Part shown: positions 438 to 11,679 of the stretch, in pieces
Position numbering within the stretch: position 1 is the first letter of the stretch
How the letters are laid out: each line of letters opens with the position of its first letter
Virus record (IMG/VR): IMGVR_UViG_3300027503_000029
Coordinates: 1-45,684 of that record
Direction: 5' to 3' (one strand)
DNA from: a virus
Length of the DNA stretch: 45,684 bases
Made by a program: the position numbers and the translations under genes
The notes under the pieces: generated by a model
The model's database searches: none
What the model saw: the letters and a program-made list of their open reading frames with translations, nothing else
Told to the model about the DNA's origin: nothing

Positions 438-1058
438 ATGCTTGACGCCGACACATTGCAGTACCAGGAAGAGGACGCAACCTACCTGCGAAGGATGGAG
501 GCGTACAGGATGGTGTTACTGCAAGGCAAGCAAAGGAAAGAAGTTGCGGAACTGTTCGGAGTCAGTGCCAGGACGATTTACAGCTGGATCAAAGACGTAT
601 CTGCCCACCTGCGGGAGCAGTCCAAGGAAGGGGTAGAAACGCTCCGGGCCACACTGACCAGCCGATGGGAGCATGTTTACGGGCTGGCAATGGACGGCTT
701 CGAGCGATCCCAGAAGAAGAAGCTCGAGACTACCCGCAAGGAGAAGCCAGGGCCGGTCGTGGAAGCCAAAGAGGGCGAACCGGTTCAGCCACCGCCGGAG
801 CCGATCGTCGAGGTGACAACGAAGGAATCAGAGCAGGCGGGGGCACCAGCGTTTCTGTCAGTGGCCTGCGACAGCCTGAAGGCGATTGGCGGGCTGTGGG
901 CCAATGAGATGGACGCTGCGGAACGCCGCGAGGGGGCGAGCATCCGCATGGCGGGCAAGTCTCAGGCTGAGATGATTAAAGCGAACATTCGGAAGCTCGA
1001 GGAGCAGCTGCTACGACTTGGCTTGCGAGGTGCAGGCGGCAGCGGCGACCGGGCGTGA
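438..1058 (+). CDS. Terminase small subunit (putative TerS)
   Basis: A 206-residue protein directly upstream of the large terminase subunit. Small terminases bind the packaging site on phage DNA and hand it to the large subunit. A helix-turn-helix is visible at residues ~34-51 (KEVAELFGVSARTIYSWI), followed by a charged, Pro/Glu-rich middle. The C-terminal helix (KANIRKLEEQLLRLGLR) is likely to oligomerise. Size, HTH and position fit TerS. The middle is not diagnostic, so the call rests on HTH plus synteny. Confidence 0.72.
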   Translation: MLDADTLQYQEEDATYLRRMEAYRMVLLQGKQRKEVAELFGVSARTIYSWIKDVSAHLREQSKEGVETLRATLTSRWEHVYGLAMDGFERSQKKKLETTRKEKPGPVVEAKEGEPVQPPPEPIVEVTTKESEQAGAPAFLSVACDSLKAIGGLWANEMDAAERREGASIRMAGKSQAEMIKANIRKLEEQLLRLGLRGAGGSGDRA

Positions 1059-1119: not shown

Positions 1120-3702
1120 ATGTTCTCCGCTGAGAATCCCGCCTACCTGTACTTCACGCCGCGACCGGATCGGCCAGCCGATTACGATCAGCAGACTTCG
1201 TTCGTCGAGGAGCAACTGCCAGGCGTGGCGTTTCTGGTGGGGGGAAACGGAGCCGGCTGTTTAGGTGCGGAGCAACCGATCTACGATCCTGTTGCCGACA
1301 CGCACACGCCGGTCAGCCAGATCCAAGGCACGTTCCACGTGTTTGCCAGGGACAAAGACGGGCACGTTGTCATTGCACGGGCAGAGCAGCCGAAAGTGTA
1401 CGGTTACGCCGATCTATATCGCGTGACATTCAGTAATGGCCGGTCGCTCGTGATTACCTGCGAGCACAAACTGCTGGCTGCGGACCAACAGTGGTTAGAA
1501 ATGCACGAGCTTCTTCAAAATGCGATGGAAGTGGGTCGCTCATCTTGTGCGAGTTTCGAGTTACTAGGATGCCGCTTGCCTTCAGTGCTCGCGACACAGA
1601 CGCAGGAATCTTTCCCAGAAGCTTGCCGATTGCACCGCACGATAGGCCATCGGACTCATACCACTTTTGAAGCAGGTCGGAAGGCCACCACGATCGTCTC
1701 TTGCGAGTCCCCGTGGCAATCGCTTGTGCGATCCTGCTCGGTGGAACCTTCCCTTTCATCGTCACAGAGATGTGCTCAGAGTTCGACGCGAACAGCTCAA
1801 GATTTTCAATGGCGTTGTTGCTCGGATCATCGTCGCGATGGTGAACAACCTCTGATGGAATCAGGTATCTTCCGATGTGTTTTTCCATTACCAGTCGATG
1901 TTCGCGAACGTAACCCTTCTTTGAAGCGTATGGGTGATCTGGGCAGTAAACCAAGATGTACCCCTCGGGCTTCTCGATGTGCCTTCCACCGTTCCATGCT
2001 CGATTTCGGCGGCCAGGTGCTCCAGTCTTTCGAAGTGGAACGCCGATCCTCTTCATCACCTTGTTTACGATCTTCTGGCCCGGCCTATACTCTCGGCCAA
2101 GAATCTTCTTCCAGTGCTTCTGCCAGTCTTCGGAGCACAACGCATCTGCGATCTCCTGAAGCGTCATTTGCTTATCGATGTACATCGACTTCATTGCGTC
2201 AATCGGCCACGGAAATGTCTTCACGAATCGTTCCTCGAAACACGGAAACAGGTAGCGTATATGTTACCCAAGTCGAGTTCCTGAGGCACGATGTCTATTG
2301 GGATTTTCATGTTCCGGTTCATGAAAACTACTGGGCAGCCGGAGTGTGGAACCACAATACGACTAGCTGCAGCCTCCATAAAGTCGTCACCTTCCTGATG
2401 TCTCAGCCTCCACCGAGGTATGACACGCCCTTCTGGATTATCGGAGAGAGCTACGATCAGATTTGCGAAACAGCTTGGAAGGAGAAGCTCAACGGGCAGC
2501 AGTTTCTCTGCCCTGCCGATGTCGACTGGGCGAGAATCACATGGCTGGACTCGAAGGCCGATCACCCGAAGACGGTGCCGTTGATGCCGTGGGAAGATCG
2601 ACCGGGCAAGAACTGGATGATTGAGTTCAAATCGTACAAGCAGGGGCGGGCCGAGATGCAAGGCCGGTCAATCGGTGGCTTTTGCTTTGTGGAACAGTTC
2701 CCATGGCAGATCCTGCGGGAAGTGCATCGAGGGTGCCGTGAATATCACTTTCCAGGGTCGATGATGGCCGAGTTTACGCCGATCGATCCTGTTCTCTCAA
2801 TCAAGCTCCAGGAGATGCAGGAGAACGGCACGCTCCCCGAAGGATGGAAGGTTTACCGGGCCAATACCCGCTGTGCGATGGAAGCTGGACACGTCGACAA
2901 GAATTGGTATCAGCAGTTCTTCGGCAGCATGGATGACGCGGAGAGGGCCGTTCGAGAGATTGGAGCCTGGGCAACATTTGAGAGCCAGATTTACCCGACA
3001 TTCAACCCGCTGCTGCACGGGATCACGGAAGAAGAGGTGTTCTGCCACGAGGGAGACTTCCCGCTGGACTCGCACCACTTCAGGTCGATCGACTGGGGCT
3101 TCTCCGCCGAGCATGCGTTCGTGTGCCTGTACGGATACCGCTGGGGCGATTCAGGCGACTGGGTTATCTATGACGAGTATTTCAGCACGGACCAGCGGAA
3201 GATCGTCCAGGAGCATCTGTACGACATCTCCAGCCGCTGGGACTGGCCGGATGATGCCTACCATCACGTGACCTATGCGGACCCATCCCGCCAGGATCAC
3301 ATTCGGATTGCCGGGCGGCTGGCTGAGTACACGCATCCAATCAGTGGCAAAACTGCCCCGTCGATGGCGATGGCCAACGCGAGCAATGCGGTCTTCCCCG
3401 GCATCGACCAAGTGCGGTACATGCTGACAATCAATCCCGCGACCGGTAAGCCGCGGCTGCGAATCTGTAAGGAACGCTGCCCGAACCTGTGGCGGCAGAT
3501 GCAGACCTACCGGTGGAAGCGGGGCAGCGAGCAGGGCATCAACCCGCGGGCCGGACAGATGGAGCCAGTCAAGGTCGATGACGACGCCGTTGACGCCCTG
3601 AGGTATCTGCTGTTCAGTGAAGCCAAGTCACGAGGGGCCACTATCTCGCAGATTGCACGGTCGTCCCGTGCGGCGAGAACAGTGCCAGGTTACAGGGGGT
3701 GA
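1120..3702 (+). CDS. Terminase large subunit precursor containing an intein
   Basis: An 860-residue precursor. Residues 47-413 are an intein, leaving a ~493-residue packaging ATPase/nuclease after splicing. The N-extein ends in the P-loop start (FLVGGNGAG) and the C-extein resumes TTSCSLHK, so the intein splits the ATP-binding loop. The RNase H-like nuclease is visible: SIDWGF (Asp658), VIYDEYF and the C-terminal VDDDAVDALRY (Asp820-822, Asp825). The spliced P-loop lacks the usual Lys, and the Walker B region (GGFCFVEQFP) has Glu but no preceding Asp. Both are unusual but do not weaken the family call. Enzyme activity should depend on splicing. Confidence 0.92.
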   Translation: MFSAENPAYLYFTPRPDRPADYDQQTSFVEEQLPGVAFLVGGNGAGCLGAEQPIYDPVADTHTPVSQIQGTFHVFARDKDGHVVIARAEQPKVYGYADLYRVTFSNGRSLVITCEHKLLAADQQWLEMHELLQNAMEVGRSSCASFELLGCRLPSVLATQTQESFPEACRLHRTIGHRTHTTFEAGRKATTIVSCESPWQSLVRSCSVEPSLSSSQRCAQSSTRTAQDFQWRCCSDHRRDGEQPLMESGIFRCVFPLPVDVRERNPSLKRMGDLGSKPRCTPRASRCAFHRSMLDFGGQVLQSFEVERRSSSSPCLRSSGPAYTLGQESSSSASASLRSTTHLRSPEASFAYRCTSTSLRQSATEMSSRIVPRNTETGSVYVTQVEFLRHDVYWDFHVPVHENYWAAGVWNHNTTSCSLHKVVTFLMSQPPPRYDTPFWIIGESYDQICETAWKEKLNGQQFLCPADVDWARITWLDSKADHPKTVPLMPWEDRPGKNWMIEFKSYKQGRAEMQGRSIGGFCFVEQFPWQILREVHRGCREYHFPGSMMAEFTPIDPVLSIKLQEMQENGTLPEGWKVYRANTRCAMEAGHVDKNWYQQFFGSMDDAERAVREIGAWATFESQIYPTFNPLLHGITEEEVFCHEGDFPLDSHHFRSIDWGFSAEHAFVCLYGYRWGDSGDWVIYDEYFSTDQRKIVQEHLYDISSRWDWPDDAYHHVTYADPSRQDHIRIAGRLAEYTHPISGKTAPSMAMANASNAVFPGIDQVRYMLTINPATGKPRLRICKERCPNLWRQMQTYRWKRGSEQGINPRAGQMEPVKVDDDAVDALRYLLFSEAKSRGATISQIARSSRAARTVPGYRG
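1258..2358 (+). mobile_element. Intein inserted in the TerL P-loop
   Basis: 367 residues from Cys47 (CLGAEQPIYDP, block A) to the terminal His-Asn followed by Thr (block G, GVWNHN then T). Block B is GRSLVITCEHKLLA, with the T-x-x-H arrangement. Block F/G is DVYWDFHVPVHENYWAAG. These Hint-fold parts occupy only about the first 80 and last 30 residues. The middle, roughly residues 128-385, is Ser/Arg/Cys-rich sequence with no domain signal in the sense direction, and it is the antisense of an HNH gene. The sense frame stays open throughout, as splicing requires. Junctions are 1257/1258 and 2358/2359. Confidence 0.93.
1454..2224 (-). CDS. HNH homing endonuclease encoded antisense within the intein
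   Basis: A 256-residue protein read against the intein strand. The GTG start at 2224 has the SD GAGGA (2232-2236) seven bases away, so it can be translated from its own mRNA. An N-terminal HTH-like stretch (MTLQEIADALCSEDW) is followed by an intact HNH core: YVREHRLVMEK, IPSEVVHHRDDDPSNN and IENLELFASNSEH. A C-terminal HTH-like repeat (GLSCGAIGKLLGKIPASVS) resembles DNA-binding repeats of homing nucleases. The stop falls inside the sense codons of intein block B. Its role is presumably to cut intein-free terL alleles and drive intein homing. Usually the nuclease is in frame inside the intein, and here it is not. Confidence 0.92.
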   Translation of the reverse strand: MKTFPWPIDAMKSMYIDKQMTLQEIADALCSEDWQKHWKKILGREYRPGQKIVNKVMKRIGVPLRKTGAPGRRNRAWNGGRHIEKPEGYILVYCPDHPYASKKGYVREHRLVMEKHIGRYLIPSEVVHHRDDDPSNNAIENLELFASNSEHISVTMKGKVPPSRIAQAIATGTRKRRSWWPSDLLQKWYESDGLSCGAIGKLLGKIPASVSRALKASGILVTRNSHKMSDPLPSHFEEARAFLTTVGPQPAVCARR

Positions 3703-8856: not shown

Positions 8857-11679
8857 ATGATCGCGGCAATGGCTCCAAACGGTAGCGGAAGTGCTACCAA
8901 GGCTGGCGGAATCGAGTTTTTCCCGGTATCCCACGTCAGCACGTTCCAAGGTCTTTCGACCACGGCGGCCAGCACATACCGCGACTACGACGTGGCGATG
9001 CGTAACAGCCTTCCGCACGCTCGCATGATGCGGGAAGATTGCTCGGTGATGGAATGCCTGGAAGCCCGACAGCGGGCCGTGGCTCTGCTCAAGTGGCACA
9101 TCCAGCCTGAGGACGATCAGAGCCAGGAGCAGAAAGACCTCGCGACCGAGATGAAACGGATACTGGAGAGGACGCCCCGGTTTATCGAGATGCGGCGTTC
9201 ACTGCTGGAAGCCATCTGGTACGGCAAGTCTGGCGTCCAGGTTCACTTCAACCGAATCCTTGTCAACGGCTACATGCGGACGGCGATCTGTAAGCAGGAC
9301 GGCAATCCAGACTCGATGGCATGGTCCCCAGTTCACGGGGACAAGATCGTGTTTCGCAATGACGACATTGCCCACCTGAAGCAAGGTCAGTATCCGTTCC
9401 AGATGGGAATCCGCATCGGTTCAAGCTGGGCCGGTAACCGACTGCCGAACGGGTACGAACCTGAGGCGATTCGGACCGCTTTCCGGGGTGAGACTGTAGA
9501 CCGCGGCATGGCCTACTTCCTGAGGCCAGACGATCGGCAGCGGTTTATTGTTCACAAGCACATGATTGAGGACGGGGCCTACGAAGACCTGTTGTCGGCT
9601 GGCTCGATTCACGGGGTAGGCGTCCGGTCCCGCATCTATTGGGACTGGCTCCAGAAACAAGAGATTCAGGCGATGCTCATCGCCTACATCGAGCGGACGC
9701 ATGGCGGTATCGAAATCTACCGCTACCCGATGGGCAACCCGGAGGCTGAGAAGGAAGCCCGTAAGGCCATCAACGGGCGAGTACCTGGACGAGCCGCCCT
9801 GCTGGTCCCGGTCCCGATGGGTGAAGATGCGTTCCAGTATGGCGTCGAACTGGTCGAGCCTGGCATGGCCGGCGTGTCTGTCCTGCAAGACCTGCTGGGA
9901 AGTTTCTTCGGACATCGCATCAAGCGGTACATCCTGGGGCAGACTCTTTCGACGGAAGCCGATGCGACCGGACTTGGCTCGGGAGTGGCGGACCTGCACC
10001 TTGAATCGTTTCTCCAGATCGTCGAGTACGACGCCACAAACCTGGAAGAGACGATCACTGATGAGATGCTGAAGCGGCTTCAGCACAACAACTTCCCCAG
10101 CTCGAAGGGCATTCACCTCCAGTTCAAGATCGACACTCAGGACGCGGACACGCAGAAGAAGCTGGAAGCCCTGCATATGGCTTGGCAGATGAACGCGAAC
10201 ATCCCGGAGCGGGAAGTGTTCGACGCCATTGGCATCAGTCCGGCGACAGAGAACGATCGAGTTCTACCGGGTCCATCTGCTGGGGGAGGTAGAGCAGCAG
10301 GTCCGGGCCAGAACCCATTTCAGCAGTCCGAAGCCTCACACGGGGCCGCTGTGAGCGTTCCGGAGCAGATTGGAGGCGACCAGCAGCCAGAGCAGTTTGA
10401 GGCCGATGGAGAGCCGGAGCGGTACGGATACGCCAGCCGGGAGCCTGACCTGCGTTCGGCCATTGCCAAGGCGGCCGCTGAGACCGATACGGAGCCGTCC
10501 GAAGCCCAGCGGATCACTGGCAACTACCGCAAGGGGCAATTCCACTGGAACGGATGGACCATCGCCATTGAGAACCCGGAAGGGTCGATTCGCCGGGGCC
10601 GCAACTCGCTCGGGGTGGAGTGGTCCCACAAGATGCCTGTTCACTACGGGTACATCCGGCGGACCGAATCGGCAGCCGATGGGGATCATGTCGACGTGTT
10701 CGTGGGGCCTGATCCGGAAAGCCCTGCGGTCTTTGTCATCGACCAGCAGAAGCCCAATGGCCGGTTTGACGAACACAAGGTCATGATCGGCTTTCTGAGC
10801 GAAAAGGACGCCATTGACGCCTACAAGGCAAGCTACTCATCCGACTGGCAGGGCCTGCGATGCGTGACGGCAATGACGGTCGAGCAGTTCGGCAACTGGC
10901 TGAATGACGGCGACACAGGCAGCCCAATCGAAGGGCAGGTAAGCAAGTACAGCCAAAAGGAATTCGACTGGAATGAGTCAGAGCATCCAAGGAACAGCCT
11001 GGGGGAGTTCGTCGAGAAGAAAGCTAAGCCCCCCCGGCCTGGATATGTGGCCATGCGTCAGGCCAAAGCTGGCGGGGAAACCTCAGAGGTCACCGGCAAG
11101 TTCTACAAGGGCGGGCACTGGATGCCGGTTCACGGCTTGCATTCAGGGAAAGAGAAGCCTGAATCCGAGCAAGGGGAATTGAAATCTCAGTCGCCTGTCG
11201 CCAATGAAAACGCCAGACCGCCGATGTCTCGCCAGTTAAGCCCAGAGCAAATTGCGGAACAGTCGGAACGCCAAGAGACAGCCGAAAGGTGGAAGCAGAT
11301 TCACGCTGGCCCGCTTGGTCATGTTCTTTCACTGGGAGATAAACCTCACCGAATCAAATTTGGTCATGGTGTGTTACAGCGATACGTCGACACAGCCAGA
11401 GCGATGGACAACCCCAACGAGAAGTTCAAGCAGGTCGCGGACGTTGCCAGGGCTATCGTCAAAGAGCATTTGCCCGGCAGTGACGATGACTACGAATACT
11501 TGGAAAGCTCGATCGTCCAAAATGCCAACGATGATGTTGGGTATTCGCCGATCACAACCCGCAAGTTTCTGAAAGACAATCCGAACGTGCTGATCGCACG
11601 CCGCTGGATCGAAGAGGCACTGGAGCAGAACCAGTCGATCGACACTCTTGCTCGCATCAACGACGCATTCTCAGCGTAG
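8857..11679 (+). CDS. Portal protein fused to a pyrophosphatase-like polyvalent module, 940 aa
   Basis: Residues ~20-480 resemble the Mu gp29/DUF935 portal family (MECLEARQRAVALLKWHI, FGHRIKRYILGQTLSTEAD, DAIGISP). Portals form the dodecameric gate at the capsid vertex. A linker follows, then residues ~553-680 match the inorganic-pyrophosphatase-like domain of polyvalent proteins: GNYRKGQFHWNGWTIAIENP, HYGYIRRTESAADGDHVDVF and DEHKVMIGFLSEKDA. The rest contains EHPRNSLGEF and YKGGHWMPVHG, short motifs common in such proteins, and a helical C-terminus. Polyvalent effectors are thought to enter the host with phage DNA. Fusion to the portal would deliver them from the vertex. GAGG at 8844 supports the start. 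Confidence 0.85.
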   Translation: MIAAMAPNGSGSATKAGGIEFFPVSHVSTFQGLSTTAASTYRDYDVAMRNSLPHARMMREDCSVMECLEARQRAVALLKWHIQPEDDQSQEQKDLATEMKRILERTPRFIEMRRSLLEAIWYGKSGVQVHFNRILVNGYMRTAICKQDGNPDSMAWSPVHGDKIVFRNDDIAHLKQGQYPFQMGIRIGSSWAGNRLPNGYEPEAIRTAFRGETVDRGMAYFLRPDDRQRFIVHKHMIEDGAYEDLLSAGSIHGVGVRSRIYWDWLQKQEIQAMLIAYIERTHGGIEIYRYPMGNPEAEKEARKAINGRVPGRAALLVPVPMGEDAFQYGVELVEPGMAGVSVLQDLLGSFFGHRIKRYILGQTLSTEADATGLGSGVADLHLESFLQIVEYDATNLEETITDEMLKRLQHNNFPSSKGIHLQFKIDTQDADTQKKLEALHMAWQMNANIPEREVFDAIGISPATENDRVLPGPSAGGGRAAGPGQNPFQQSEASHGAAVSVPEQIGGDQQPEQFEADGEPERYGYASREPDLRSAIAKAAAETDTEPSEAQRITGNYRKGQFHWNGWTIAIENPEGSIRRGRNSLGVEWSHKMPVHYGYIRRTESAADGDHVDVFVGPDPESPAVFVIDQQKPNGRFDEHKVMIGFLSEKDAIDAYKASYSSDWQGLRCVTAMTVEQFGNWLNDGDTGSPIEGQVSKYSQKEFDWNESEHPRNSLGEFVEKKAKPPRPGYVAMRQAKAGGETSEVTGKFYKGGHWMPVHGLHSGKEKPESEQGELKSQSPVANENARPPMSRQLSPEQIAEQSERQETAERWKQIHAGPLGHVLSLGDKPHRIKFGHGVLQRYVDTARAMDNPNEKFKQVADVARAIVKEHLPGSDDDYEYLESSIVQNANDDVGYSPITTRKFLKDNPNVLIARRWIEEALEQNQSIDTLARINDAFSA

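Follow-up and report, generated by a model that had tools for sequence, protein, structure and literature searches.

An intein in a phage large terminase with an HNH endonuclease gene on its opposite strand, and the recurrence of this architecture among phages

Known systems and the terminase locus of the window

In the standard picture of mobile inteins, the spliced protein includes the homing endonuclease as one of its domains, and the site of this domain within inteins is highly conserved (PMC6801210); an HNH_3-bearing intein is known in the dCTP deaminase of phage CL131 (PMC6293099). We analyzed the IMG/VR virus record IMGVR_UViG_3300027503_000029 (45,684 bases, the whole of which is called the window below), where an intein interrupts the large terminase gene (terL) and a complete HNH endonuclease gene lies within that intein on the opposite strand, an arrangement that breaks the standard picture. 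The architecture is real and recurrent. Very probably, it represents a mobile intein whose endonuclease is an independent opposite-strand gene, located where canonical inteins hold their endonuclease domain.

With canonical mobile class 1 inteins, such as the full-length Mtu RecA intein and that of CL131, the element shares the HINT domain and its catalytic residues, the placing of an endonuclease in the loop that separates blocks B and F, a conserved motif as insertion site and a patchy distribution with exact empty sites. It differs from them in that its endonuclease has a gene of its own on the opposite strand and the sense loop is, by prediction, disordered. Fractured genes, reportedly described by Dassa et al. 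in 2009, have split inteins with an endonuclease gene between the halves; there too the endonuclease gene is outside the intein polypeptide and tied to a splicing element, whereas here the intein is one continuous open reading frame (ORF) and the HNH gene overlaps it. I-HmuI, the best fold match of the HNH model described below, has an established homing role in phages and is encoded in a group I intron, unlike the present HNH gene, which is antisense in an intein. The ShiLan domain is an HNH concealed in an alternative frame of a phage methylase insertion (PMC11855218); it resembles the window element in that the host ORF is left open and the spread is disjunct, but it lies on the host-gene strand, outside inteins, without a splicing domain and without a detectable ribosome-binding site. 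For overlapping frames, the same paper refers to the work of Gosselin et al. 2025 (bioRxiv, 'Non-Canonical Architecture') and to Gorbalenya 1998 ('Non-canonical inteins'), and, as far as these citations tell, related architectures may be described there. An antisense intein nuclease was not found among 5.39 million open papers, a scope outside which these two works fall, and we do not claim priority.

An earlier note on this DNA had placed an intact intein (Cys47 to Asn, with Thr at +1) in the P-loop of TerL, and its coordinates were correct: the intein ends are Cys47 (1258) and Asn413 (2358) of the terL ORF, and the insertion point is GGNGAG/TT (the slash marks the junction here and below). 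The features of the locus are as follows.

1120..3702, + strand: terL precursor ORF of 860 amino acids (N-extein, intein, C-extein); both exteins align to intein-less homologues
1120..1257, + strand: N-extein, ending ...LVGGNGAG at the Walker A motif; the intein-less L326 and L328 have an uninterrupted GGNGAG/TT
1258..2358, + strand: intein of 367 amino acids, Cys1 to His-Asn, with Thr at +1; Pfam Intein_splicing, below the curated cut-off
1258..1536, + strand: N-terminal segment of the HINT splicing domain, covering residues 1-93 with Cys1 (block A) and His70 (block B), from AlphaFold2 and Foldseek
1543..2247, + strand: sense linker (intein residues 96-330), predicted disordered from its low model confidence, with 0 stops over the HNH overlap
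2248..2358, + strand: C-terminal segment of the HINT splicing domain, covering residues 331-367 with blocks F and G and ending HN, from model confidence and the invariant D349 and N367
2359..3699, + strand: C-extein, the remaining ATPase and nuclease of TerL, starting TTSCSLHK; 44-51% identity to the intein-less TerLs L326-L328
1454..2224, - strand: HNH homing-endonuclease gene of 256 amino acids, GTG at 2224, TAA at 1456-1454; Pfam HNH_3, 1.5e-10
2045..2224, - strand: N-terminal helical region of the HNH protein (residues 1-60), a probable DNA-binding part in the model; four helices, model confidence 87-96
1790..1900, - strand: HNH_3 catalytic core (residues 109-145); Pfam, with invariant H129, N137, N141 and H151
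1580..1669, - strand: helix-turn-helix, weak match to HTH_38 (residues 186-215; E 0.006, below cut-off), helices in the model
1457..1579, - strand: C-terminal tail of the HNH ORF (residues 216-256), model confidence about 40-75, partly opposite intein block B and probably read-through
2232..2236, - strand: Shine-Dalgarno (SD)-like GAGGA, 7 nucleotides (nt) before the GTG, read directly from the sequence

All class 1 intein residues (Cys1, His70, Asn367, Thr+1) are present in the window, and C1, H70, D349 and N367 are invariant among 42 nested inteins. Pfam Intein_splicing matches the sense ORF at 4.7e-5 (23.7 bits, against a curated cut-off of 35.8), with the match split around the middle; two relatives, L226 (52.5) and L198 (37.8), pass this cut-off. 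The complete antisense HNH gene that the earlier note had described, with its GTG start and SD sequence, was confirmed by an HNH_3 match exceeding the Pfam cut-off; homologues match the protein from residue 2-6 onward, and H129, N137, N141 and H151 are invariant across 53 nested HNHs.

The intein was modeled by AlphaFold2 with the 42 nested inteins as alignment. Residues 1-93 and 331-367 had a predicted local distance difference test (pLDDT) score of 88-98, and the best Foldseek match of this folded part was the Mtu RecA mini-intein (2in8, E 1.2e-5). On the other hand, residues 96-330 (about 235 amino acids) had a mean pLDDT of 32-52 without secondary structure, and Pfam and NCBIfam searches of this sense middle gave no domain, in line with what had been noted from the letters alone. 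The window intein is therefore predicted to have a HINT fold around a disordered linker, which, as we read the model, occupies the usual position of the intein endonuclease domain. The HNH protein was modeled with a pLDDT of 83.6, and its best fold match was the homing endonuclease I-HmuI (1u3e; probability 0.99, E 0.062).

Recurrence of the architecture and selection on the two strands

Since antisense ORFs longer than 240 amino acids occur elsewhere in the window, ORF length alone is not evidence for an antisense gene; the evidence is the domain match together with homologues and a codon-phase test. In this test, the HNH protein was kept and its codons were synonymously reshuffled. Over the window HNH, the sense frame had 0 stops against 7.7 expected, as the stop-free frame reported before would lead one to expect, and only 0.05% of the reshuffles were open (P about 0.0005). 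No host-frame stop was present in any of the nine antisense HNHs tested, window included, with P of 0.0015 or less in eight; the eight besides the window had 2 to 22 stops in each other frame. Six free-standing HNH relatives had 6-12 stops in the corresponding phase and 2 to 26 in each of the frames.

With the window HNH and an alignment of nested HNHs as queries, IMG/VR yielded 129 classifiable loci of this HNH family. At 88 of them (window included) the HNH gene is wholly within a long opposite-strand ORF, always in one phase in which HNH codon position 1 faces sense position 1; the search for antisense HNHs in phage inteins that the earlier note had proposed thus returned a large family, and none of its members has a broken sense frame over the HNH, an outcome that the note had named as refuting its reading. 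The intein C-terminal block was found in all 88 host ORFs and the N-terminal block in 79, the other nine being partly cut by contig ends or without a scored N block. The loci collapse to 53 lineages at 80% identity, and in the HNH tree the nested lineages group together (4 label changes; 27.7 when shuffled). A chance antisense ORF is ruled out by the domain match, the phase test and the 88 loci, and an assembly artefact by recurrence in independent metagenomes and cultured phages. Expected stop counts were of similar order in all three antisense phases, so that codon permissiveness was rejected as the reason for the single phase, and common descent is the likelier cause.

By a text rule (insertion directly at a GK[ST]-type motif), 83 of the 88 insertions are in a Walker A motif. 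Among those outside this rule are the window itself (GGNGAG/TT, from a lineage without the Lys) and L226, which is also in a P-loop. The host proteins are mostly TerL, but also include a DnaX-type clamp loader, SNF2 and AAA_34 helicases, an AAA_24 protein and an SMC-like protein. Taken together as sequences, the antisense-HNH inteins appear as one phage intein clade specialized on Walker A motifs. Cultured carriers are the Pectobacterium phages Sabo, Ymer, Abuela, Koroua, Amona, Pappous and Taid, and the Dickeya phage Setonix, which make the arrangement testable. Their terL is labelled 'hypothetical protein' in annotated records, and the HNH gene is unannotated in the Sabo record; the architecture explains some such phage ORFs as intein-bearing terminases. 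One scan of cellular genomes gave two relatives, neither seen nested in an opposite-strand ORF.

We compared substitutions by codon position in 14 independent pairs of antisense loci, that is, in homologues and not in the window copy. Per codon at sense positions 1/2/3, they amounted to 0.243/0.180/0.524 in the exteins and 0.155/0.116/0.397 in the intein splicing blocks, showing the third-position excess in both. In the overlap, the values were 0.158/0.291/0.164 (462/853/480 substitutions over 2,930 codons), with the peak at sense position 2, which is the wobble position of the HNH gene; therefore, selection in the overlap reads the antisense strand. The same switch is visible between Sabo and Koroua, with 1/1/26 substitutions in the exteins and 2/14/3 in the overlap. 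Furthermore, in every one of the 14 pairs the HNH proteins resembled each other more closely than the sense linkers did (mean identity 83% vs 63%, Wilcoxon P 0.00012), the reverse of a conserved sense middle opposite an unconserved HNH, which the earlier note had named as a refuting outcome. The computation establishes antisense-frame selection in the homologues. Of the earlier note's view that both strands appear constrained, the half concerning the HNH as a protein holds, while the sense middle of the homologues is constrained mainly to lack stops. The sequences point to protein-level selection on the HNH and the splicing blocks, with the sense linker kept stop-free and little else. Such a natural long antisense coding overlap has protein selection on one strand and openness alone on the other.

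Mobility of the element and competing explanations

In a group of marine phages (the L010 group), the element is present at 11 loci, and in 62 relatives the site is exactly empty, reading GG[NS]R/SGKT. The element is 99-100% identical across terL alleles that differ by up to 25%, and divergence at third positions was 0.29-0.36 per site in the exteins against about 0.01-0.03 in the element. L094 and L096 have no intein difference in 933 nt, while their flanks are 90.7% and 80.8% identical; for L088 and L092, identity is 99.6% in the intein and 84.6% and 75.4% in the flanks. Horizontal spread of the element within one group is established by these computations, and the element identity above that of the flanks, together with the empty sites, is the mark of recent homing and lends strong support to this interpretation. 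Empty sites are also found for the window gene (GGNG[AS]G/TT in the TerLs L326-L328, which are 44-51% identical) and for Sabo (FVAGFG/TGKSQTM in Klebsiella phage HSE3). A search with the exact pattern of the window junction gave no match. Distances between HNHs correlated with those between splicing domains across 42 loci (Spearman 0.29; 0 of 2000 permutations), and therefore both parts tend to travel together.

We propose the following mechanism. The terL strand would give one precursor, in which the HINT halves fold together across the disordered linker of about 235 amino acids, and splicing would remove the intein, restoring TerL. The opposite strand would give the 256-amino-acid HNH endonuclease, with its N-terminal helices and a possible C-terminal helix-turn-helix, and this enzyme may cut or nick the Walker A site of an intein-less terL, to which we infer it is specific. 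Repair would then copy the whole intein with the nested HNH gene into the cut allele. Selection keeps the HNH protein and the splicing blocks, and the linker needs only to stay open.

Because they are on opposite strands, the nuclease and the splicing element cannot be co-translated, and the uncoupling of nuclease expression from splicing asserted in the earlier note follows directly. The HNH would be expressed from an antisense transcript, whose timing may differ from that of terL, and, as the earlier note supposed, transcription of the two genes could interfere. Among the family's ATG starts, 14 of 45 have an SD of 5 nt or more, compared with 41 of 464 internal ATGs (P 7.5e-5).

Several observations weigh against the mechanism proposed here, or limit its reach. 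Many HNH starts of the family have no clear SD, and a conserved HNH promoter, strong against shuffles at first, was rejected under a synonymous-codon control that left promoter-like sites weakly enriched (8 of 53 vs 7.2% expected, P 0.034); inspection of promoter-like sites upstream of the window HNH gave none that was convincing. The window intein is without a close relative, so that mobility and selection are seen in homologues rather than in the window copy. Moreover, the HNH closest to that of the window (63-66%) is free-standing: in L007 it lies antisense (2635-3291), flanked by an intein-less terL (1367-2623) and by the gene that precedes this terL. The window HNH could have been acquired separately from its intein, and the relationship suggests exchange between free-standing and nested HNH forms. 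Finally, the islands of identity are evidence of recent transfer of the element, but they are no proof of which enzyme is responsible.

These points bear on the alternatives. A recent or chance overlap, by which a free-standing HNH was inserted backwards in one intein or the HNH is a by-product of antisense reading, with the arrangement not conserved, draws on the long antisense ORFs elsewhere in the window as well as on the free-standing relative. It is refuted for the family by the 88 loci in one phase, the clustered HNH clade, the absence of stops and the HNH-frame selection, and we regard it as very unlikely. If the element were instead a split intein or contained an RNA intron, the stretch opposite the HNH would not be translated in the sense direction, and a reported precedent is that of fractured genes, in which an endonuclease gene separates the two split-intein halves. 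This explanation is highly improbable, as one open sense frame runs through the window locus and all 88 loci, which excludes a split intein or fractured gene, and the window has no Rfam match at the gathering threshold, on which a group I intron was rejected. A cryptic in-frame endonuclease, with the sense middle as a degenerate endonuclease and the antisense HNH similarity secondary, would agree with the place at which canonical inteins hold this domain (PMC6801210). However, the sense middle lacks a Pfam or NCBIfam domain and is modeled at low pLDDT without secondary structure, the linker evolves faster than the HNH in every one of the 14 pairs, and the codon-position data also oppose such an enzyme, so that we give it hardly any credence.

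It is also conceivable that the HNH is conserved for a different function, such as packaging or the exclusion of rival phages, and hitch-hikes on an intein spread by ordinary recombination. Phage HNH proteins can act in packaging (PMC11855218), the free-standing HNH of L007 adjoins terL, and HNH cleavage is only predicted. Speaking against a hitch-hiker are the mosaic identity, whose bounds are those of the intein, the 62 close relatives with exact empty sites, the fold match to I-HmuI and the co-inheritance of the HNH with the splicing domain, and we consider this explanation unlikely. As for the proposed mobile intein with an opposite-strand endonuclease gene, we lean, with some reserve, towards its being part of a widespread undescribed clade, specialized on Walker A motifs, in which mobility is separate from splicing, and accompanied by a parallel same-strand clade. 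The finding bears on how mini-inteins become mobile, and a free-standing nuclease by terL, as in L007, is a plausible intermediate.

A parallel same-strand clade and other observations

A second HNH clade (A3), with zinc-finger-like cysteines, is nested in inteins on the same strand and out of frame, at 67 loci in +1 and at 12 loci in +2; both intein blocks are present in 73 of these 79. Its codon-position pattern shifts likewise. The insertion sites are mostly the TerL nuclease motif and never Walker A, by the text rule applied to the antisense loci. This clade is closer to ShiLan than the antisense clade is, but it is within inteins. Its members are L061, L063, L065-L071, L073-L085 and L239-L316 (e.g. 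L067:2899-3552), as well as Tetrasphaera phage TJE1 (L320).

Three antisense loci have unusual contents. One terL ORF (L055:566-3736) has two inteins: the one at the P-loop holds an antisense HNH, and the one in the nuclease domain holds an HNH on the same strand but out of frame. A 1214-amino-acid ORF (L186:167-3808) has an antisense-HNH intein plus an in-frame LAGLIDADG_3 domain. In L009:1-2241, the antisense-HNH intein is without block B in the sense frame, and it is possibly degenerate and splicing-incompetent, or else an assembly error.

The TerL Walker A motif has no canonical lysine (GNG[AS]GTT) in the window (1240-1257, 2359-2367) and in the intein-less L326, L327 and L328, whereas L332 has GNGSGKT. 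Damage to Walker A by the intein was considered as the reason and rejected, because the intein-less L326-L328 share the motif, which is hence ancestral.

Upstream of terL, at 438..1058 on the + strand, is a probable small terminase gene (PHROG terminase small subunit, 2.1e-5; another PHROG scored better). Elsewhere in the window (8857-11679), a 940-amino-acid ORF fuses a portal-like part (248-516) to a minor-head-protein-like part (about 537-692).

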